Assembly: GCF_030814475.1 (NCBI RefSeq)
Contig: NZ_JAUSVF010000002.1
Span: 558,001 to 622,000 of the forward strand
Direction: 5' to 3'
DNA length: 64,000 nt
DNA from: Pararhizobium capsulatum DSM 1112
GTDB taxonomy: Bacteria; Pseudomonadota; Alphaproteobacteria; Rhizobiales; Rhizobiaceae
Of this stretch, positions 38,622-48,713 are shown one piece after another (position 1 is the first letter of the stretch; every line of letters begins with the position of its first letter). Position numbers and translations under genes: made by a program. The notes beneath the pieces were generated by a model. It did no database searches and was not told the origin of the DNA. It saw only the letters and a list, made by a program, of their open reading frames with translations.

Positions 38622-39644
38622 TCAAGTGCTGGCATATCCTGTCAGAAACGCGGTGAGATTATCGCCGAGCGCGTCGCAGAGATAGCCGCCTTCCTGCACG
38701 ATAACTGTCGGCAGGCCAAGGGCTGCAATTTCCTCCGCAATCCGCGAAAAGCCCTGCGTCGATACCGAAAGGCCCCCGAAGGGATCTCCCTCATAGGCAT
38801 CGAGTCCGAGCGCCACGACCAGCGCATCCGGTGCAAAAGATTGAATGCGGCGCAAAGCTGCGGAGAGCGCCTCGAGAAATCCGGCATCCGCCGTCTGGCG
38901 CGGCAGGGGTAGATTGAGGTTATAGCCCAGCCCCTCGCCGTCCCCCCGCTCGTCCGCGTGGCCCCAGAAGAACGGATAGAAGCGCACCGGATCGGCATGG
39001 ATCGACACGGTCAGCACATCGTTGCGGCGATAGAAGATGCCCTGGGTGCCATTGCCGTGATGCAGGTCGACGTCGAGGATGGCGACCCTTTTGGAGGAGC
39101 CGAGCAGATGCTGCGCGGCAATTGCCGAGTTGTTGAAGAAGCAGAAGCCGCCGGCGACATCGGCAAAGGCATGGTGGCCGGGCGGTCGGCAGAGTGCGTA
39201 AGCCGAGCGTTCGCCGGCAAGCACAGCCTCCGTCGCCTCGACCGCGCTCCAGGCGCTCCAGCAGGCGCTGCCCCACGTATCGGCGGAAATCGGGCAGGCC
39301 GTATCGGCCATATGATAGCCGGCCTGGCCGACAGCGGAGGCCGGATATCGGCCTGAGCGGACAAGCGGATGGATGTTTGGGATCACCTCTTCCGAAGCGC
39401 CCTCGATGCGCTGCCAGCGCAGAAAAATGTTCTGAAGGAAGTCGAGGTACTCAGGGGTATGAATGGCGGAGATCGGCTTCAGGCCATGATCGCGTGGGCG
39501 GATTATTTCCGATCCTGCCGCACGCGCACCGGACAGCAGACGTTCGATACGCTCCGGCTTTTCCGGGTTGGGTTGCGGCGCGCCGCTCGACAGAAACATC
39601 TTCGGATCGTGGCGCTTCTGCTCTTCGGCATGGAAGGTCTTCAT
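38622..39644 (-). CDS. Acetylpolyamine amidohydrolase-like deacetylase (histone deacetylase family)
   Basis: A 340-residue arginase/deacetylase-fold enzyme. Zn ligands are D193 and H195 (ILDVDLHHGNGTQ) and D282 (LGLDAYEGDP); the histidine pair is H157-H158 (CRPPGHHAF), and the catalytic Tyr lies in VQEGGY near residue 320. Length and motif spacing agree closely with Mycoplana acetylpolyamine amidohydrolase (341 residues), including the extended loop at about 68-100 that narrows the active site. It would remove acetyl groups from acetylated putrescine, cadaverine, spermidine or a similar amine. Last gene of a five-gene operon; nine bases after the GNAT gene. Confidence 0.88.
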   Translation of the reverse strand: MKTFHAEEQKRHDPKMFLSSGAPQPNPEKPERIERLLSGARAAGSEIIRPRDHGLKPISAIHTPEYLDFLQNIFLRWQRIEGASEEVIPNIHPLVRSGRYPASAVGQAGYHMADTACPISADTWGSACWSAWSAVEATEAVLAGERSAYALCRPPGHHAFADVAGGFCFFNNSAIAAQHLLGSSKRVAILDVDLHHGNGTQGIFYRRNDVLTVSIHADPVRFYPFFWGHADERGDGEGLGYNLNLPLPRQTADAGFLEALSAALRRIQSFAPDALVVALGLDAYEGDPFGGLSVSTQGFSRIAEEIAALGLPTVIVQEGGYLCDALGDNLTAFLTGYAST

Positions 39645-39653
39645 CGTCTCTCC

Positions 39654-40166
39654 TCAGACACCGTTTTCATGCAGGCCAGCCAGCAGCTGGAAGGCATCGC
39701 CATAGGCGGCGTGGATGCGTTCCTCCTGCGACCAGGAAAGCCCAAGGCGCTCATAGAAGCGTTGTGCCGAAACATTATTCACATCAACGGACAGGCGCAA
39801 ATAGGTGCCACCTTGTGCGCGAACGTGGGCGGCCGTATGCCGCAAAAGCGCCACCCCCGTGCCACGGCCGCGGAAGCGTTCGTCGACAACGATATCCTGG
39901 ATATAGGCCCCCCTCCGCCCCCGCCATGTCGAGAAGCTGGGAAAGAAGAGCGACATACCGACGAAGGCTTGTTCGGTCTCCGCGATCAAAACCTCAAAAG
40001 CTGACCGCGGCCCAAACGCATGGAGGCGGATGTCCTCGACCGTCGAGGTCACCTTGCCGTCCGCATTCATGTGGCGTGCGATCATCAGTAAACCCTTATG
40101 GATCGCTTCCGCATCCTTCTCTTCCGCGAGACGGATGACGACGGATGCTTCTTCATCATTGGTCAT
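39654..40166 (-). CDS. GNAT-family N-acetyltransferase
   Basis: A 170-residue single-domain GNAT. The acetyl-CoA site is IQDIVVDERFRGRGTGVALLRH (about residues 93-114, with the R/Q-x-x-G-x-G/A loop RGRGTG), followed by YLRLSVDVNNVSAQRFYERLG. The family resembles diamine/aminoglycoside-type acetyltransferases, but the substrate is not determined. It starts in an ATGA overlap with the BKACE stop and precedes a deacetylase gene, so the operon encodes both an acetylase and a deacetylase. Confidence 0.85.
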   Translation of the reverse strand: MTNDEEASVVIRLAEEKDAEAIHKGLLMIARHMNADGKVTSTVEDIRLHAFGPRSAFEVLIAETEQAFVGMSLFFPSFSTWRGRRGAYIQDIVVDERFRGRGTGVALLRHTAAHVRAQGGTYLRLSVDVNNVSAQRFYERLGLSWSQEERIHAAYGDAFQLLAGLHENGV

Positions 40167-41098
40167 CAGAACGCCACCTCGCCGGCACCCTTCAGCTCCA
40201 GCATCACCCGCGCCTCGTCCGGTGTCGCGATCTCCAGCGACAGGGCTTCAAGGATGTTGCGGATGCGGCGCACCTGTTCGGCATTCGAGGTCGCGAGCTC
40301 GCCGCGACCGAGATAGAGATTGTCTTCCAGACCAACGCGCACATGACCTCCCATCGTTGCTGCCATCGTCGCCAGCGGCATCTGCTGGCGACCGGCCGCC
40401 AGGACCGAGAAGCGATAGTCGCCGCCAAACAGCTTGTCGGCAATATGTTTCATGTGGATGAGGTTGTCCGGGTCGGCGCCGATGCCGCCGAGGATGCCCA
40501 TCACGAATTGAATGAACAGCGGCCCCTTGACCAGCCCGCGATCGTAAAAATGTTTCAGCGTATAGAGATGGCCGACATCGTAGCATTCGAATTCGAAGCG
40601 CGTGCCGCAGCCTTCGCCGAGCCGCTTCAGGATATCCTCGATATCGGCAAAGGTGTTCTTGAAGATCGCACCACGAGTGGCTTCCAGCAGCTGTGGCTCC
40701 CACTCGTGCTGCCACTCCATGCCGGGCTTGGCGAGCGGATAGATGCCAAAATTCATCGAGCCCATGTTGAGCGAGCACATTTCCGGCCGGGCGGTGAGCG
40801 CCGCCGCCAGCCTGTCGTCGAGCGACATCAGCGAACTGCCGCCGGTGGAAATGTTGATGACCGCATCGGTTGCCTGCCGTATGCGGGGCAGGAACTGCAG
40901 GAAGACGGCGGGATCGGCGCTGGGACGACCATTTTCCGGATTGCGGGCATGGAGATGCAGGATCGCGGCACCCGCTTCGGCAGCCTCGATAGCCTGTTGC
41001 GCGATTTCATCCGGCGTCACCGGCAGATAAGGGCTCATCGACGGCGTGTGGACCGAGCCGGTGATGGCGCAGGTGATGATGACTTTGCGGGCTGCCAT
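40166..41098 (-). CDS. BKACE family beta-keto acid cleavage enzyme (DUF849)
   Basis: A 310-residue TIM-barrel enzyme of the 3-keto-5-aminohexanoate cleavage enzyme family. Zn-binding H48 and H50 lie in AILHLHARNP, and the third ligand glutamate is in GHVRVGLEDNLYLG, with the substrate-loop GGSSLMSLDDR. These enzymes condense a beta-keto acid with acetyl-CoA to give acetoacetate and a CoA ester. Start ATG 41098 fits the family N-terminus (KVIITCAITGSVHTP). Next to an aminotransferase it suggests a pathway in which an amino acid is converted to a beta-keto acid and then cleaved. Specificity cannot be read off. Confidence 0.9.
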   Translation of the reverse strand: MAARKVIITCAITGSVHTPSMSPYLPVTPDEIAQQAIEAAEAGAAILHLHARNPENGRPSADPAVFLQFLPRIRQATDAVINISTGGSSLMSLDDRLAAALTARPEMCSLNMGSMNFGIYPLAKPGMEWQHEWEPQLLEATRGAIFKNTFADIEDILKRLGEGCGTRFEFECYDVGHLYTLKHFYDRGLVKGPLFIQFVMGILGGIGADPDNLIHMKHIADKLFGGDYRFSVLAAGRQQMPLATMAATMGGHVRVGLEDNLYLGRGELATSNAEQVRRIRNILEALSLEIATPDEARVMLELKGAGEVAF

Positions 41099-41108
41099 GA
41101 CGATCTCC

Positions 41109-42452
41109 TCAAGTGTTGACCGGCAGGCCGAGTTCACCGGCAAGCTGCAGCAAGGTGTCATCGAGGATCGAGACGACCTCTCCGATTTCTTCGGGAGTAA
41201 TGATCATCGGCGGGCAGACGAGGAAATGATCGCCCTCGATCCCGCCACGGGTGCGGCGGGAATAGATGATCAGGCCCTTGTCATAGGCGATATCGACGAC
41301 GCGCTGGAAGGCGTTCAACTCCTTGGGCAGCGGCTTCATCGTCTGGCGATCAACGACGAATTCAGCGGCGAGCAGCAGCCCCTTGCCCCTGACATCGCCG
41401 ATGAAGGGAAAGCGTTCCGAGAGCTTCACCAGTTCGGCCTTCAGAAGCTCGCCCATGACGGCGGCGTTTTCGACGAGTCCCAGCCGTTCGATCTCATCCA
41501 GAACGGCAAGCCCGGCAGCGCAGGCGAGCGGATTGCCGGCATAGGTATAGCCGTGCATGAAGCCGCCGGCGTCGAGCACCGGCTGCACGAGCCGCGACGG
41601 TGCGATCATGGCGCCGAGCGGGCTGTAGCCGGCGCCAAAACCCTTGGAGAGAGCGATCAGATCCGGCTGGCAGTTCCAGTGATCGCCCCCGAGGAATTTG
41701 CCGGTGCGGCCGGCACCGCTCATCACCTCGTCATGGATCAGCAGGATACTGTGCCGGTCGCAGATGTCGCGGATGCGCGGATAGTAACTGTCGGGGGCGA
41801 CCAGCGCACCGGTCGAGGCACCGCCAATCGGCTCCATGATGAAGGCGAGAACACTTTCGGGTCCTTCCTCGATGATCTTCTCCTCGAGTTTGTCGGCATA
41901 GCGGATGCCGCGTTCCTCCATCGAAAAATTGTCCCGATCGAGATAGGCCGTCGGCGCCACAATCTTCGGCATCTCCTGCATCATCGGTGTGAACGGATCG
42001 GTGAGCGCTGCATAGCCGGTGACGGCGAGCGCACCGAGCGTGCTGCCGTGATAGGAGGGAAAACGGGAAATGACCTTCCAGCGGCTCCCCTGCCCGACGG
42101 CAACAGCATATTGCCGGGCGAGCTTCAGGCAGGATTCCACCGCCTCCGAGCCGCCGGAGACGAAGAACACCTTGTCCATACCGTCAGGCATATAGCCTGC
42201 GGCGCGGCGGGCCAGTTCCTCGGCCGGCTCGTTTTCGAAATGCAGGCGATAGGCGAAGGAAACGCGCTCCAGCTGCGCCTTCATCGCCTCGATCACATGA
42301 CGATTGCCATGGCCGATATTGGCGACCATGGCGCCGCTGGAGCCATCGATCACCTTCTTTCCGTTCCGGTCATAGAGATAGATGCCCTCGGCTCGATCGA
42401 CGAGGGGACGGCGCAGGCGCGTCTGGTAGAAGAGATGGGATGCGGAGGTCAT
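41109..42452 (-). CDS. Class III PLP-dependent aminotransferase
   Basis: A 447-residue fold-type I aminotransferase: FVSGGSEAVESCLKLARQ (phosphate-binding loop), PSYHGSTLGALAVTG, LIHDEVMSGAGRTG with PLP-pyridine-binding D241, and Schiff-base K270 in ALSKGFGAGYSPLGA. The group includes omega-amino acid:pyruvate, taurine, polyamine and beta-amino acid aminotransferases. Lying between a DMFase-like hydrolase (15 bases) and BKACE (10 bases), it probably converts a beta- or omega-amino acid to the corresponding oxo compound (inference). Confidence 0.92.
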   Translation of the reverse strand: MTSASHLFYQTRLRRPLVDRAEGIYLYDRNGKKVIDGSSGAMVANIGHGNRHVIEAMKAQLERVSFAYRLHFENEPAEELARRAAGYMPDGMDKVFFVSGGSEAVESCLKLARQYAVAVGQGSRWKVISRFPSYHGSTLGALAVTGYAALTDPFTPMMQEMPKIVAPTAYLDRDNFSMEERGIRYADKLEEKIIEEGPESVLAFIMEPIGGASTGALVAPDSYYPRIRDICDRHSILLIHDEVMSGAGRTGKFLGGDHWNCQPDLIALSKGFGAGYSPLGAMIAPSRLVQPVLDAGGFMHGYTYAGNPLACAAGLAVLDEIERLGLVENAAVMGELLKAELVKLSERFPFIGDVRGKGLLLAAEFVVDRQTMKPLPKELNAFQRVVDIAYDKGLIIYSRRTRGGIEGDHFLVCPPMIITPEEIGEVVSILDDTLLQLAGELGLPVNT

Positions 42453-42467
42453 TGGGTCTGCCTGATC

Positions 42468-44099
42468 TTATGAGTTGAGATAACGATTGAGGACATTGGC
42501 GGTGACGCGCTCGACCATGGGGTCGCGGCGCAGAAGGCCTGCCACCCATTCGCAGGTGCCGGCGTGAAAGACCTCGCCCTTGCCCCGCTTGAAATTGACG
42601 ATCATCCCGTTGCTGTAGCGCACCTTTTCCATGTTCTCGTCGCTGGCATCGCCATAGAGGGTTTCGGCGATGAAGCGGCCATCCTCGTCGCCGAAGAACT
42701 GGTCTTCCGGGGCTAGGATGTCACTTTCCTCGACCTGGCTCGCCATGCCGAGCGCAAGGATTTCGAGGCCGTCCGGCGCGCCGCTGTCGGCGGCTGGATA
42801 GGGAAGCCCGTGGCGGACTTCGTAGGAAAGGCCATCGACCTCGTAGCCGTAGATATGGCTGTCGGCGCCGATCAGGTCGCCATAGAACAGGCCGGTTCCG
42901 GCAAAGGCCCAATGGCCGGGACGATAGACTGGAAAGCCGCGCACGCCGCGTGGCGCGCAACCGCCCCAGCCGGCATAGACGCCATTGGTGGCGTTGAGGC
43001 CGAAGGTCAGTGCGCCGGGGCGGCCGATCTCCGGTGCTTCCCATGAGTTCGTGGCACGCGTGACATCACCGCCGCGATAGGCAGGATCTTCAGCCCGGGC
43101 GACATATTTGTAGCAGACCTGTCGGCAACCCTCGTCCTCCAGCCGCGTCTGCCACATGAAATTGCCGGCGAAACGCGCTGCTTTTCCGCCGCGCTCGACG
43201 AAGGCATCGACAGCGTCGCGCATTTCCCAGGTCCAGTATTCGTCATGGCCGACGAAGACGGCGCAGTCATAGCCATCGAGTATGGCCGGGTCGAAATGCA
43301 ACTCGTGTTGGCTTGCGAGATCGACCTGATAACCTTGCGCTTCCGCCCAGCGGAAGAACAAGCTGTCATAGCTTGCCCAACCGGAGGAGGCGTATTTCTT
43401 GGAATAGCCGTTGGCATAGGCCCATTCCATGTGCGGATAGCGCGGGATCGTGCCCGGCGGCAGGCTGACCTCCAGCGGCACACGCGGCGCATCGGTCGGC
43501 AGTCGGACGAAGCCACGGCAGAAGGGCCGTTCGAGGCTGACGGTGGTCGCGAACTGGTCACGATTCGGGCCGGTGATACCCTGATAGTGGTTGGAACCGC
43601 CCCAGGTATTGTACGCGCTCCACGTACCGGTTGCGGCGACCTGCAGGATGCGGCCTTTCTTCGAGCCTGCACCGGGCAGCACGATGATCAGGTGGTCATA
43701 CTGGATCGGTGCGCCGTCCCGACCTTCCGCCGTCAGCGTGATACGATAAGCGCCGGAGGGCCAGCTCGGGTCGATCTCGAAAGCTGTCGTCACCTCCCAT
43801 TCGCAGCCGGTGACCGAACATTGATCCGGTGTCTCCTGCCAGCGAGTGGCGATATCGCCTCTCACGAGAACGACGGTCTCCGTCGCACCGTCGCGAACGA
43901 CTTCGAGCCGGCAGCTGGCTGCCGTCGAACTGATATGAAGTTCCACAGTCGCACCGGGACGATAGGTATAGGCGCTGACGTAGCACCAGATCTCGCCACG
44001 CATGCCATCCATGCCGGGATATTCGTAATAGTGACCACGCACGGCAAAGCGCCGCTCTTCGGCGCTCAGCCCGAAATCCGGAAAAATGCGATCTGTCAA
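42468..44099 (-). CDS. N,N-dimethylformamidase large-subunit-like protein
   Basis: A 543-residue protein related to the DMFase beta (large) subunit C-terminal region. It has an N-terminal beta-sandwich (about 15-120), then GHDEYWTWEMRDAVDAFVERGGKAARFAGNFMWQ and a late VNFKRGKGEVFHAGTCEWVAGL segment. DMFases are iron amidohydrolases; the small subunit is not encoded here and this protein is shorter than the 760-residue enzyme, so it is a divergent stand-alone member. The start is TTG 44099, because GGAGG sits six bases upstream; a frame open to 44183 would run into the LysR promoter. First gene of the five-gene operon. Confidence 0.82.
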   Translation of the reverse strand: MTDRIFPDFGLSAEERRFAVRGHYYEYPGMDGMRGEIWCYVSAYTYRPGATVELHISSTAASCRLEVVRDGATETVVLVRGDIATRWQETPDQCSVTGCEWEVTTAFEIDPSWPSGAYRITLTAEGRDGAPIQYDHLIIVLPGAGSKKGRILQVAATGTWSAYNTWGGSNHYQGITGPNRDQFATTVSLERPFCRGFVRLPTDAPRVPLEVSLPPGTIPRYPHMEWAYANGYSKKYASSGWASYDSLFFRWAEAQGYQVDLASQHELHFDPAILDGYDCAVFVGHDEYWTWEMRDAVDAFVERGGKAARFAGNFMWQTRLEDEGCRQVCYKYVARAEDPAYRGGDVTRATNSWEAPEIGRPGALTFGLNATNGVYAGWGGCAPRGVRGFPVYRPGHWAFAGTGLFYGDLIGADSHIYGYEVDGLSYEVRHGLPYPAADSGAPDGLEILALGMASQVEESDILAPEDQFFGDEDGRFIAETLYGDASDENMEKVRYSNGMIVNFKRGKGEVFHAGTCEWVAGLLRRDPMVERVTANVLNRYLNS

Positions 44100-44204
44100 A
44101 GCCTGCCTCCGCAGCAAGAATACCGGGCCGATAAGATCATCATGGACGGCGCAGCACAAATACATTAGCTGAAGCATAAGCATTCATGAAATCTATGAGA
44201 ACGC

Positions 44205-45182
44205 ATGATCGCCCCGCGCCGTCGCTTTGTCTGGGAACTCGATTGGAACCTGCTTCGCACCTTTATGGTGATCGCGGAGGAGAAAAGCTTGACGGCGGCC
44301 GGAGATCGCCTGTCGCTGAAGCAACCGACGATCAGCAACGCGTTGCGCCGGCTGGAAGAGCACATGGCCTGCCGGCTGATCGAGCGTTCGGCCAACCATT
44401 TTCGCCTGACCCCGGCGGGTGAACGCCTGCAGGGCGCCTGCCTCACGATGTTCGACCTCGCCTCCGGACTTCCCGATCTCGTCAGCGACGATCCGGATCA
44501 GGTCACCGGCCATGTCGACATGGCGTTTGCCAGCCATATCGAATGCCCATTCCTCGATCGCTTCCTCGCCGAATTTCACCAAACTTTCCCACGTGTCAGC
44601 TTTTCGACGACGGTGCTTTCCAGTCAGGATGTGACAGAGGCGGTGCTGGCAAACGATGCTTGTCTCGGCATCTGCCTTTCACAGGAAAAACAGCCGGAAC
44701 TCGACTATCGTCCGCTTTATCGCGAGCATTTCGGCTTCTTCTGTGGCCCCGGTCATCCGCTTTTCGGCAGGCAGGATGTGGCCGTCTCCGATCTCGCCAC
44801 GCTCGATTACGTTTCGTTCCGAACGGATCACCCGCAAGGGGCACTGGCACCGATCGCCCGGCTCAGGCGACGGGAGAATTTCAACGGTCATGTTGCCGGG
44901 CTCTTCACCAATCTGGAAGAGGTCAAGCGCCTGATCAAGATCGGTTTCGGCTTCGGGCCGCTGCCGATCCATGTGGTTTCCGCAGAGGTTGCGGCAGGAG
45001 AGCTCTGGCAGTTGCCGCCCTATGACAACCCGCCGGCGGTCGATGTCTATGTGGTCAACAGCCCAAGAGCCCATCGCAGCAAGGCGGAAACCCTGCTTCT
45101 GGAAAAGCTGATCGCCGCAATCGACATGGTGCCGTTGGCGGAGCGGACCTATCCGCAAAGTTTGGTCGAGCCTGCGAAATAA
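44205..45182 (+). CDS. LysR-family transcriptional regulator
   Basis: A 325-residue LysR regulator: winged helix-turn-helix at about 10-75 (LDWNLLRTFMVIAEEKSLTAAGDRLSLKQPTISNALRRLE) and a LysR substrate-binding domain from about 95 to the end. It is divergent from the DMFase-like/aminotransferase/BKACE operon with 105 bases between starts, the classical LysR arrangement, so it most likely activates that operon in response to a pathway compound (inference). A strong hairpin follows its stop. Confidence 0.92.
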   Translation: MIAPRRRFVWELDWNLLRTFMVIAEEKSLTAAGDRLSLKQPTISNALRRLEEHMACRLIERSANHFRLTPAGERLQGACLTMFDLASGLPDLVSDDPDQVTGHVDMAFASHIECPFLDRFLAEFHQTFPRVSFSTTVLSSQDVTEAVLANDACLGICLSQEKQPELDYRPLYREHFGFFCGPGHPLFGRQDVAVSDLATLDYVSFRTDHPQGALAPIARLRRRENFNGHVAGLFTNLEEVKRLIKIGFGFGPLPIHVVSAEVAAGELWQLPPYDNPPAVDVYVVNSPRAHRSKAETLLLEKLIAAIDMVPLAERTYPQSLVEPAK

Positions 45183-45357: not shown

Positions 45358-45495
45358 AATCGCCGCAATCGACATCGATGCCACGGCTCCATGCGAAAGC
45401 CGCGACCTACACAGCTATCGCCCGGTCACCCCATCGCCGCCACTCTTATCCCGCTTGACGCGACGCAAATCATTTGCATTATTGCTCAGATGTCA

Positions 45496-45509
45496 GACCA
45501 ATTTTGGTC
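45496..45509. promoter_or_regulatory. GntR operator candidate
   Basis: GACCAA-TT-TTGGTC is a perfect 6-bp inverted repeat with a 2-base spacer, ending 13 bases before the GntR start at 45523. FCD-type GntR proteins bind short palindromes of this kind, so it is probably the autoregulatory operator for the GntR-PLP enzyme-ABC operon. Confidence 0.55.
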
Positions 45510-45522
45510 GAGGATCCGAGCC

Positions 45523-46245
45523 ATGGCGACGATGACGAATGCAAGAGCGGCCCTCCTGCCCCTGCCCCCGGCGGACCGGGCAGCGCAGGTGACGGCCGCT
45601 CTTGCTGACTATATCGACCGTGCCAATCTTGGTGCCGGTGATCGGCTGCCGACGGAGCGGGAACTGACGATAGCGCTCGGCGTCGGCCGTTCGACCATCC
45701 GCGAGTCCATTCGTCATTTCCAGGCGCTCGGCGTTGTCGAAGCCCGCAAGGGCAGCGGCACGTACCTGCTGCGGCCGATCTCGGGCGCAACCGTTCACAT
45801 GCCGCTTTCATTTGAAACCGGTCGGTTGCGCGACGTGCTGTTGCAGACGCTTGAGGTTCGCCGTGGCATCGAGGCGGAGGCCGGCATGGTCGCTGCGCGT
45901 CGCCGCACGGCGGAGGATCTTGTCAACATCAAGCAGAAGCTTGACGAGATGGAGCGAGTCCAGATCGCCAAGGGAACGTCGGGGCCGGAAGATCTCGCCT
46001 TCCATCTGTCGATCTATGACGCCACCCACAATCCGCTGTTCAAGCAGCTGCTCGAGCAGATGCGCGGCGCCTTCGAGCATTTCTGGGAAAAACCGTTCGA
46101 CCGGCCGGATTTCGCTCGGCGCTCTTTCCCCTTCCATCGCACGTTGTTCAACGCGATCGCCGCCGGCGATCCGGAAGCTGCACGCGAAGAAACACTGAAA
46201 ATCCTCGCCATCGTCGAGGAAGACATCAAGGAAATGTCGAAATGA
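45523..46245 (+). CDS. FadR-type GntR transcriptional regulator
   Basis: A 240-residue regulator with a GntR winged helix (about 20-88: GDRLPTERELTIALGVGRSTIRESIRHFQALGVVEARKGSGTYL) and an FCD ligand-binding domain (about 100-225, with the metal-binding histidine pattern HLSIYDATHN and FHRTLFNAI). ATG 45523 was chosen; in-frame alternatives are ATG 45490 and 45532. Its stop overlaps the start of the PLP enzyme gene by ATGA, so it is the first gene of that operon and likely represses it in the absence of substrate. Confidence 0.9.
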   Translation: MATMTNARAALLPLPPADRAAQVTAALADYIDRANLGAGDRLPTERELTIALGVGRSTIRESIRHFQALGVVEARKGSGTYLLRPISGATVHMPLSFETGRLRDVLLQTLEVRRGIEAEAGMVAARRRTAEDLVNIKQKLDEMERVQIAKGTSGPEDLAFHLSIYDATHNPLFKQLLEQMRGAFEHFWEKPFDRPDFARRSFPFHRTLFNAIAAGDPEAAREETLKILAIVEEDIKEMSK

Positions 46246-47414
46246 GCAATGACTTCGATCCGTTCGAAGATGCGTCCCTCATCGTCGCCCATGATGAGGG
46301 CAATGCCTATGACGCCGTCGTCCCGCCGATCGTGCAGACGTCGCTGTTCACCTTCACGGATTACGACGACATGGTCGCCTCCTATCGCGGCGAGAAGGTC
46401 CGGCCGATTTATACCCGCGGCCTCAATCCGACCGTGCGCATGTTCGAGGAGATGCTAGCAAAGCTCGAAGGCGCCGAAGACGCGATGGGATTTGCGAGCG
46501 GCATGTCGGCGATCTCGTCCACCGTGCTCTCCTTCGTCGAGCCGGGCGATCGGATAGTCGCGGTCAAGCATCTTTATCCCGATGCCTTTCGCCTGTTCGG
46601 CACCTTCCTGAAGCGCATGCGCATCGAAGTGACCTATGTCGATGGTCGCGACGAGGAGGAAGTGGCGAAAGCCCTGCCGGGCGCCAAGCTGTTCTATATG
46701 GAAAGCCCGACCAGCTGGATCATGGAAACCCATGACGTCGCGGCCCTTGCAGCCCTTGCCAAGAGCCATGGCGTCATGACCACCATCGACAACAGCTGGG
46801 CAAGTCCGATCTTCCAGCAGCCGATCTCGCTCGGCGTCGATCTGGTCATCCATTCGGCCTCGAAATATCTCGGCGGCCATAGTGATGTCGTCGCCGGTGT
46901 CGTTGCCGGTTCCAAGGAGTTGATCGGCCGCATCCGGGCCGAAGCCTATCCCTATCTTGGCGGCAAGCTTTCGCCCTTCGATGCGTGGCTGTTGATCCGC
47001 GGCATGCGCACCCTGCCGATCCGCATGAAGGCGCATGAGCGCTCGGCGACCGAGATAACCAAGAGACTTAGCGCCCATCCGCTGGTCGAGACAGTCTGCT
47101 ATCCCGGCCTCGGCAACCATTTGCCTTCAGGGCTTTCGGGCACGTCTGGCCTGTTTTCCTTCATCTTCCGGGAAGGCGTGGATGTCCGCACCTTCTCGGA
47201 TCACCTGCAACTTTTCAAGCTGGGCGTCAGCTGGGGCGGGCATGAGAGCCTGATCGTCCCCGGCGAAGTCGTCCTGTCGCAGAAAGCACAACCCAATTCC
47301 GCGGTCGCCTTCGGCATCAGCCCGCGGTCGGTACGGCTCCATGTCGGCCTGGAGGGAACGGAGGCCCTCTGGAGCGATCTCGAAGCGGCGATCTCAGCCG
47401 CCTCGTCAGGCTGA
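46242..47414 (+). CDS. Cys/Met-metabolism PLP enzyme (cystathionine beta-lyase/gamma-synthase family)
   Basis: A 390-residue PLP enzyme. Features are PIYTRGLNPTVRMFEEMLAKLEGAEDAMGFASGMSA (Y57, R59 phosphate-site pair and the lid of the active site), D183 (TIDNSWASP) and Schiff-base K208 in VIHSASKYLGGHSDVVAG. Family reactions are C-S lysis or exchange at C-beta or C-gamma of amino acids (cystathionine, methionine, homoserine esters). Its place between a GntR regulator and a carbohydrate-type ABC transporter, rather than with methionine genes, suggests a catabolic lyase acting on an imported compound (inference). Confidence 0.88.
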   Translation: MSNDFDPFEDASLIVAHDEGNAYDAVVPPIVQTSLFTFTDYDDMVASYRGEKVRPIYTRGLNPTVRMFEEMLAKLEGAEDAMGFASGMSAISSTVLSFVEPGDRIVAVKHLYPDAFRLFGTFLKRMRIEVTYVDGRDEEEVAKALPGAKLFYMESPTSWIMETHDVAALAALAKSHGVMTTIDNSWASPIFQQPISLGVDLVIHSASKYLGGHSDVVAGVVAGSKELIGRIRAEAYPYLGGKLSPFDAWLLIRGMRTLPIRMKAHERSATEITKRLSAHPLVETVCYPGLGNHLPSGLSGTSGLFSFIFREGVDVRTFSDHLQLFKLGVSWGGHESLIVPGEVVLSQKAQPNSAVAFGISPRSVRLHVGLEGTEALWSDLEAAISAASSG

Positions 47415-47453
47415 CACACAAAGACCAACGCAATCACAAAAAGGGGAATGAAA

Positions 47454-48713
47454 ATGAGGAAACTGATTGCTGCAACCGTTCTGGCCTCGCTGATGGCGGG
47501 AACGGCCCTTGCCGATACCAAGCTGAAGCTGGTGGAGGTCATCACCAGCCCCGAGCGCACGGAGACGCTGAAATCCATCGTCGCCAAGTTCGAGGCGGCC
47601 AATCCGGGCACGACCGTCGAGGTTATCTCGCTCCCCTGGGGCGAAGCCTTCCAGAAGTTCGCGACCATGGTTTCGGCCGGCGAAATTCCTGATGTCATGG
47701 AAATGCCGGATACCTGGCTGTCGCTCTATGCCAACAACGGCATGCTCGAAAGCCTCGAACCTTATCTGGCAAAATGGGAGCACACGAGCGGCCTGACCGA
47801 CCGTGCGCTCGAACTCGGCCGCGACGTCAAGGACACGGCCTATATGCTGCCCTATGGCTTCTATCTGCGCGCCATGTTCTACAACAAGAAGATCTTCGCG
47901 GAAGCCGGCGTTGACGGCCCGCCGAAGACGATGGACGAATTCGTCGCCGCGTCTGAAAAGATCTCCAAGCTTCCGGGCAAATACGGCTACTGCATGCGCG
48001 GTGGTCCGGGCGGTTTGAATGGCTGGATGATGTTCGGGGCCACGATGGCCGGCGACAACACCTACTTCAACGAGGACGGCACCTCGAAGTTCAGCGAAGA
48101 AGGCTGGGTCAAGGGCTTTGCCTGGCTCACCGACCTTTACAAGAAGGGCTATGCGCCGAAGGACAGCGTCAACTGGGGCTTCAACGAGATCGTTGCCGGC
48201 TTCTATACCGGCACCTGCGCGATGCTCGATCAGGACCCGGATGCGCTGATCGCCATCAGTGAACGCATGGATGCGGCCGATTATGGCGTCGTGCCGATGC
48301 CGAAGGGCCCATCCGGCAAGACCTTCCCGACCATCGGCTACGCCGGCTGGTCAATGATGTCAGCCAGCACCAACAAGGACCTCTCCTGGAAACTGATCGC
48401 TACCCTCGAAGGGCCGGAAGGCAACATCGACTGGAACAAGCGCATCGGCGCACTGCCAGCATTGAAGGCTGCCGAGAAGGATCCGTTCTATCAGGGCGAC
48501 GCCTTCAAGGGTTGGTTCGAGGAACTGGCCGACAAGGACGCCGTACCGACCGTCATGCCGACCTATCTTGAAGAATTCGCCTTCTTCAAGGACTCGATGG
48601 CGATCAAGACCAGCCAGGAAGCCATGCTCGGCGATATCACGCCGGAAGAAATGGCAAAGCAGTGGGCCGACTACATGACCAAGGCCCAGCAGAAGTTCCT
48701 GTCCAGCAAGTAA
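47454..48713 (+). CDS. ABC transporter substrate-binding protein, carbohydrate family 1
   Basis: A 419-residue periplasmic binding protein with a signal peptide (MRKLIAATVLASLMAGTALA, cleavage near residue 20) and a MalE/UgpB-type fold: TLKSIVAKFEAANPGTTVEV, PDVMEMPDTWLSLYANNG, YGFYLRAMFYNKKIF. Start ATG 47454 has AGGGGA at the right distance, while ATG 47448 would be too close. It lies 39 bases after the PLP enzyme gene and is separated from the permease genes by a hairpin, the usual way of making excess binding protein. Ligand is not predictable. Confidence 0.92.
   Translation: MRKLIAATVLASLMAGTALADTKLKLVEVITSPERTETLKSIVAKFEAANPGTTVEVISLPWGEAFQKFATMVSAGEIPDVMEMPDTWLSLYANNGMLESLEPYLAKWEHTSGLTDRALELGRDVKDTAYMLPYGFYLRAMFYNKKIFAEAGVDGPPKTMDEFVAASEKISKLPGKYGYCMRGGPGGLNGWMMFGATMAGDNTYFNEDGTSKFSEEGWVKGFAWLTDLYKKGYAPKDSVNWGFNEIVAGFYTGTCAMLDQDPDALIAISERMDAADYGVVPMPKGPSGKTFPTIGYAGWSMMSASTNKDLSWKLIATLEGPEGNIDWNKRIGALPALKAAEKDPFYQGDAFKGWFEELADKDAVPTVMPTYLEEFAFFKDSMAIKTSQEAMLGDITPEEMAKQWADYMTKAQQKFLSSK

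Follow-up and report, generated by a model that had tools for sequence, protein, structure and literature searches.

A conserved five-gene operon of Pararhizobium capsulatum that may degrade beta-lysine, or a related beta-amino acid, by an acetyl-capped route

The locus

The operon described here lies within a 64,000-nucleotide stretch of the genome of Pararhizobium capsulatum DSM 1112 (assembly GCF_030814475.1, contig NZ_JAUSVF010000002.1, positions 558,001 to 622,000; termed here the window, in whose coordinates features are given). Its five genes encode a hydrolase resembling N,N-dimethylformamidase (DMFase), a class III aminotransferase (AT3), a BKACE, a GNAT acetyltransferase and a deacetylase of the histone deacetylase (HDAC) fold. 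Comparison with other genomes suggests that these enzymes together degrade a beta-amino acid bearing an additional amine at the end of its chain, with beta-lysine (3,6-diaminohexanoate) the likeliest, by a route in which the terminal amine is temporarily capped with an acetyl group; we put the probability of this interpretation, each of whose substrates is a prediction, at roughly 0.58.

The gene for the DMFase-like amidohydrolase (42468..44099; PF20254, 543 residues from a TTG start) is followed by those for AT3 (41109..42452), BKACE (40166..41098; PF05853 and NCBIfam NF053538), the GNAT (39654..40166) and the deacetylase (38622..39644; an acetylpolyamine amidohydrolase by its closest structures), all on the minus strand and separated by 15, 10, -1 and 9 bases. 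Open reading frames and profile searches (Pfam DMFA2_C, Aminotran_3, BKACE, Acetyltransf_1 and Hist_deacetyl, respectively) thus confirm the coordinates, strand, spacing and gene names of an earlier note on this DNA, which had described a five-gene operon facing a LysR gene. That regulator (44205..45182, plus strand; named by Pfam), which would act as the substrate sensor, is 41-47% identical to LysR proteins encoded beside related operons of both types discussed below. A regulated promoter is expected in the 105 bases between operon and regulator (44100..44204), where a scan for sigma-70-like promoters found 0 sites against 1.7 expected. The DMFase-like frame has an alternative, earlier start, the ATG at 44183; its homologues begin near the TTG at 44099.

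Conservation of the gene set

The DMFase-like protein served as the query against a collection of named genomes. It gave 362 matches, and the 80 best of these are the 'named loci' referred to throughout; because they were chosen in this way, they come mostly from Mesorhizobium and Rhizobium relatives. In 47 of them all five genes occur in the same order and on the same strand, an arrangement that is beyond chance; the medians of their gaps are estimated at 40, 10, 9 and 2 bases. The earlier note had held that the genes act together and had proposed looking for the set in other genomes; the set is indeed conserved, which supports joint action. A GntR regulator, a Cys/Met pyridoxal phosphate (PLP) enzyme and a sugar ATP-binding cassette (ABC) transporter binding protein, encoded beyond the LysR gene (45391-48713), were considered as further components and excluded: they adjoin the operon in nine of the 80 loci (L033-L039, L075 and L109), none of them from Mesorhizobium.

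A second survey covered 297 genomes of the family, genes being called near when their matches start at most 6 kb apart. DMFase-like matches were counted from about 55% identity upwards; BKACE matches were taken in full for the top of the list and, lower down, when near other genes of the set, so that the counts of places without BKACE may be slightly high. At these limits the deacetylase occurs in 80 genomes, the aminotransferase in 72 and the DMFase-like protein in 47; deacetylase and aminotransferase co-occur in 63 and deacetylase and DMFase-like protein in 45. Fisher values for these associations take no account of phylogeny. Among 48 places with the DMFase-like gene, 24 also have the aminotransferase, BKACE and deacetylase, 12 do so without BKACE, four have none of these and eight show other mixes. 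All 12 genomes that lack BKACE at the operon possess a BKACE homologue (E at most 1e-118), which, among the matches listed, could be placed in seven of the 12, always away from the operon. Of 80 places centred on the deacetylase, 24 have all the genes, 21 keep the aminotransferase and BKACE without a DMFase-like gene within 6 kb, 12 are without BKACE and seven are other mixes. The DMFase-like gene is therefore dispensable to the set: because the core genes occur together without it, it is an optional add-on, probably with the role of a feeder amidase.

Beyond the family, two genomes from elsewhere in the order (L200 and L201) have genes for the aminotransferase, BKACE, GNAT and deacetylase side by side, again without a DMFase-like gene; the set was not found at eight further, distant deacetylase places that were opened (L202-L209). 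At one locus (L166:10345-10746) a 134-residue frame between the aminotransferase and GNAT genes, 42% identical to BKACE over 77 residues, may be what is left of a BKACE that was lost.

A second operon type

Of the aminotransferase places in the 297 genomes, 11 lack window-type partners altogether. Ten were opened. Six of them (L170-L173, L176 and L185) have an aminotransferase 67-70% identical to AT3, followed by both CoA-transferase subunits (A and B) and an ArgE/DapE deacylase; three of the six have an adjacent thiolase. Rhodobacteraceae M382 (L164) has the same arrangement with a thiolase and an aminotransferase 65% identical to AT3. Genes for a LysR and an SBP_bac_3 amino acid ABC binding protein accompany M382 and five of the six places, L176 having neither; the M382 LysR is 41% identical to that of the window, and GNATs 37-39% identical to the window GNAT lie inside L170 and L173. 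The M382 binding protein is 56% identical to its orthologue in a Mesorhizobium operon of the window type. An SBP_bac_3 gene lies upstream in 16 of the 80 named loci and none beside the operon in the window; the Mesorhizobium-type transporter orthologue was not found in the P. capsulatum genome, where the best-scoring match is 34% identical and none exceeds 38%.

Conversely, the ArgE/DapE deacylase occurs in none of the 80 window-type loci and CoA-transferase A in only two, at below 50% identity. BKACE thus replaces the CoA-transferase, and the HDAC-type deacetylase replaces the deacylase, while the same aminotransferase is retained. Such an exchange is what would be expected if the intermediate were an amine-capped beta-keto acid.

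The link to beta-lysine

A precedent for this chemistry exists in Bacillus velezensis and Cytobacillus, whose clusters encode an aminotransferase, CoA-transferase A and B, an M20 peptidase, AblB (beta-lysine N-acetyltransferase) and AblA (lysine 2,3-aminomutase); compared with them, the S. medicae CoA-transferase subunits are 43-50% and the deacylase 33% identical. The B. thuringiensis kam locus has been assigned to L-lysine metabolism (PMC4428206), and lysine degradation in Bacillus is reported to yield beta-lysine as its first metabolite (PMC6957869). The Bacillus kam (ablA-ablB) cluster and the window operon have in common an acetyltransferase, a class III aminotransferase, an enzyme activating or cleaving a beta-keto acid, and a deacylase. 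Unlike that cluster, the window operon has no aminomutase, a BKACE in place of the CoA-transferase, an HDAC-type deacetylase in place of the M20 deacylase, a GNAT outside the AblB family, an additional DMFase-like hydrolase and a LysR gene beside it. The earlier note knew of no described pathway with this combination; the route, however, does have precedent, in this cluster and in the Pseudomonas beta-lysine enzymes considered below.

Among rhizobia, Rhizobium sp. C104 has a lysine-2,3-aminomutase-like gene followed by genes for CtfA, CtfB, deacylase, thiolase and a GNAT 39% identical to that of the window; similar aminomutase-like genes lie about 8 kb (R. bangladeshense) and about 21 kb (S. 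meliloti ml46) from the GNAT gene. The rhizobial genes of this kind fall into the AblA_like_2 family (by a profile result for C104) and not into the proven AblA family.

Related genes were also seen on rhizobial plasmids near genes of the CoA-transferase type. In this group (L155 and L159-L161, one of them a pSymA) a lysine-2,3-aminomutase-like gene is present on L159-L161, and ATP-grasp L-amino-acid ligases (LAL_C2) are also encoded; L161 has in addition an aspartokinase-type kinase and a semialdehyde dehydrogenase, and L155 an ectoine-synthase-like cupin. These plasmid genes possibly make a diamino-acid peptide. A speculative extension, to which we attach little weight, is that rhizobia both make and consume a dipeptide or amide containing beta-lysine as a private currency, much as with rhizopines, the DMFase-like amidase and either module forming the consumer side.

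The individual enzymes

The BKACE belongs to PF05853 (377 bits against a cut-off of 24.8), and residues H48, H50, R254, E258 and D259, which we take to be the HxH, Arg, Glu and Asp positions with zinc-binding and catalytic roles, are conserved in all 53 named loci with the gene. It exceeds the cut-off of the NF053538 (3,5-dioxohexanoate cleaving) subgroup, with 533.8 bits against 430, but not that of the Kce model (256 against 382). Moreover, Val16, present in 53 of 53 loci, occupies the position inferred for Glu14 of Kce, the register being set by the conserved ITG motif. The enzyme is therefore not of the Kce type, as the earlier note had supposed. In Kce, Glu14 is described as binding the free amine (PMC10470551); a valine there suits a capped, acetylated substrate. 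Close relatives are BKACE15 of Paracoccus (8RIO/8RIP; E 1e-118), which is reported to have no known physiological role (PMC11961710), and the structure 3E02 (E 2e-130); family and motifs are shared with both, while the genetic context here is one of amino acid breakdown. In an account of the deoxyribonate pathway (PMC6365646) a BKACE is likewise proposed to act on a beta-keto acid in aerobic catabolism; there the keto acid comes from a dehydrogenase, here from an aminotransferase. The second BKACE of the genome (L144:6902-9712, on another contig) was rejected as a component: it adjoins a carnitine 3-dehydrogenase and probably cleaves dehydrocarnitine.

In AT3 the lysine K270 is conserved in all 74 named loci with the gene. 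The nearest NCBIfam models, NF005685 and NF005375 (PRK06917), both score below their cut-offs; AT3 reaches 442 bits on the latter (cut-off 535), as against 767 for the Bacillus kam-cluster aminotransferase and 627 for the Cytobacillus protein. Kinship with the Bacillus enzyme receives 89/83 support in a tree that includes long branches and for which, as in the second tree considered below, three aminotransferase frames of the P. capsulatum genome entered with only their last 470 residues. The functionally matching aminotransferase of S. medicae is only 25% identical to AT3, and its best solved relatives are a beta-transaminase (E 1e-129) and a beta-phenylalanine aminotransferase (E 5e-122). 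At a separate place (L210:4756-8872) a BKACE homologue (61%) and a beta-transaminase-like aminotransferase (48% identical to the S. medicae one) are encoded about 2 kb apart, a possible further beta-amino acid pair.

The best solved match of the GNAT is a probable N-acetyltransferase without a name and the best named one a thialysine acetyltransferase (E 1e-15); NATA1 and the ornithine and diamine acetyltransferases rank lower. The structures closest to the deacetylase are named acetylpolyamine amidohydrolase, and its His-His pair, Asp/His/Asp zinc ligands and catalytic tyrosine are kept in 74-75 of 76 named loci, the remainder being alignment gaps.

The DMFase-like protein matches in fold both the DMFase large subunit and N-acetyl-(R)-beta-phenylalanine acylase, at about 20% identity in structural alignment, but at 543 residues is shorter than the solved chains (about 720-760). 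Of the DMFase iron ligands Tyr399, Tyr440 and Glu521 and the catalytic His519, three of the four map to Y163, E287 and H285, which are conserved in 80 of 80 named loci; Tyr440 is unmapped. A first structure model had a predicted local distance difference test (pLDDT) score of 56.8. DMFase requires its small subunit for activity (PMC7686228), and no gene for this subunit is found among the five of the operon. At one place (L131:5238-9586) a DMFA2_C protein of 884 residues is encoded immediately ahead of the DMFase-like gene (555 residues).

Proposed pathway

The likeliest core of the pathway is the one that the earlier note had outlined: transamination to a beta-keto acid followed by BKACE cleavage. 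N-acetyl-beta-lysine, which it had named as an example, is a very good candidate intermediate. In the pathway proposed here, the DMFase-like metal amidohydrolase would release the amino acid from an amide; the GNAT would acetylate its terminal amine (N6), preventing cyclisation of the later ketone; AT3, as an N6-acetyl-beta-lysine transaminase, would take off the beta-amine to give 3-keto-6-acetamidohexanoate; BKACE would use acetyl-CoA to cleave this, yielding acetoacetate and 4-acetamidobutyryl-CoA; and, once the CoA is lost, the deacetylase would turn 4-acetamidobutyrate into 4-aminobutyrate (GABA), which would enter central metabolism. The cap makes chemical sense because a free 6-amino-3-ketone would be expected to close to a five-membered ring. 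The earlier note had both amide hydrolases releasing the substrate: this may stand for the DMFase-like enzyme, but probably not for the deacetylase, which fits better as the last step because it balances the acetyl group put on first by the GNAT.

Beta-lysine degradation in Pseudomonas B4, studied by Barker's group, reportedly involves an acetyltransferase, a transaminase (EC 2.6.1.65), acetyl-CoA-dependent keto-acid cleavage and deacetylases (EC 3.5.1.51 and EC 3.5.1.63), in a reaction order said to equal the predicted order for the operon gene for gene; one enzyme of that strain is said both to deacetylate and to hydrolyse the CoA ester. To our knowledge, no genes have been assigned to these enzymes. 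A literature search yielded nothing connecting beta-lysine with acetamidobutyryl compounds, and one on beta-lysine and rhizobial catabolism turned up only work on osmolytes and on beta-valine.

Alternatives and points of doubt

The data do not fix the chain length, the GNAT's relatives are named for ornithine-, thialysine- and diamine-type amines, and BKACE15 is described as accepting substrates from malonate semialdehyde to C6 acids (PMC11961710). The same logic might therefore serve a different beta-diamino acid, such as 3,5-diaminopentanoate or a beta-lysine bearing a hydroxyl or methyl group, with products of other length; this we regard as unlikely, though deserving some weight, in that the C104 aminomutase-like gene and the Bacillus ablA/ablB cluster point to beta-lysine. 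That the name of the NF053538 subgroup, whose equivalog cut-off the BKACE exceeds, should be taken literally, the operon degrading a precursor of 3,5-dioxohexanoate, is very improbable indeed: ring-opening and dehydrogenase genes are absent, unlike in the phloroglucinol cluster as described in PMC10470551, and the close relative BKACE15 is reported to accept several other substrates (PMC11961710). Its reported cleavage of malonate semialdehyde (PMC11961710) would also suit a division of the operon, in which GNAT and deacetylase handle polyamines (as the names of the closest deacetylase structures would have it) and AT3 and BKACE an unrelated beta-amino acid such as beta-alanine. Such a division fits poorly with one conserved operon and with deacetylase, aminotransferase and BKACE standing together at 45 of the 80 deacetylase-centred places, and we think it quite improbable.

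Catabolism of ectoine-like compounds or of an N-acyl-diaminobutyrate, with the DMFase-like enzyme opening or deacylating the substrate, the aminotransferase acting on the terminal amine and BKACE on a side product, is suggested by the neighbourhoods of the DMFase-like gene on Rhizobium plasmids. In the plasmid survey, 12 neighbourhoods out of 23 matching records were opened; their gene tables are incomplete, and adjacency there refers to the listed genes. In four (L137, L156, L157 and L158) orthologues 65-71% identical to the DMFase-like protein accompany genes for an amino acid ABC transporter, an aminotransferase, M24 and M20 hydrolases and Lrp/AsnC; L157 and L158 (the DMFase-like gene of the latter being a fragment) additionally have neighbouring genes annotated as EutB or EutC; an M24 hydrolase also follows the deacetylase or GNAT gene in five of the 80 named loci. 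The aminotransferase of such a plasmid is, however, only 40% identical to AT3, and ectoine-type catabolism would leave both the beta-keto acid and the exchange of BKACE for CoA-transferase unexplained; we consider it improbable for the operon as a whole. Elsewhere the DMFase-like gene is paired with a large (about 826-residue) CoA-transferase gene (L138, Dinoroseobacter; L141, Shinella) or, in R. etli Mim1, stands without any of these partners. Given such contexts, the substrate of the DMFase-like enzyme itself may not be beta-lysine.

Its presence in ectoine-utilisation-like clusters is one of several observations that weigh against degradation of beta-lysine by the operon. The gene set is often incomplete: BKACE alone is missing in 22 of the 80 named loci, four hold only the DMFase-like, BKACE and deacetylase genes (a further seven deviate in different ways, two of these lying on short stretches), 16 of the 80 deacetylase-centred places have none of the partner genes, only one of the 12 plasmid neighbourhoods (L134) has all five genes, and four of the ten opened places with a lone AT3 homologue have neither module (L174, L175, L177 and L184, the last on a 3.5-kb contig). 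Kinship between AT3 and the Bacillus aminotransferase loses its support, with no Bacillus sister group, in the second tree, built after the removal of eight rows that were mostly long branches. The GNAT gave no match in a profile search to TIGR03827 (AblB), on which the Bacillus AblB protein scores 303 (cut-off 205), and the reported BKACE15 substrates are short, neutral beta-keto acids (PMC11961710).

Finally, the operon contains no aminomutase. The genome's sole match to that family, an AblA_like_2 gene well above the TIGR03822 cut-off and below that for EpmB, directly follows EpmA, on whose other side lies elongation factor P (EF-P) (L143:3155-6058); it is probably the mutase for EF-P beta-lysylation of this group, and the idea that the operon itself makes beta-lysine was rejected on this ground. 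A search for lysine 2,3-aminomutase found TIGR03820 above its cut-off in none of 398 Pseudomonadota genomes, with weaker matches in 21. For these reasons beta-lysine, if it is the substrate, probably comes from outside.

Conclusions

If the proposed degradation of beta-lysine is correct, genes can be put forward for the N6-acetyl-beta-lysine transaminase and the 4-acetamidobutyryl-CoA/4-acetamidobutyrate deacetylase, for which we know of no sequences, and a pathway known mainly as biochemistry would gain genes for its steps. It would also supply a natural substrate for relatives of BKACE15, an enzyme reported to have no known role (PMC11961710), and suggest a substrate class for the large DMFase-like family. 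The two operon types would then represent a single pathway that retains its aminotransferase but exchanges its carbon-cutting chemistry (BKACE in one type, CoA-transferase, often accompanied by thiolase, in the other) as well as the enzyme that removes the cap. Beta-lysine is present in soil antibiotics and, in acetylated form, is an osmolyte; given this occurrence, a sink for it in soil would matter.

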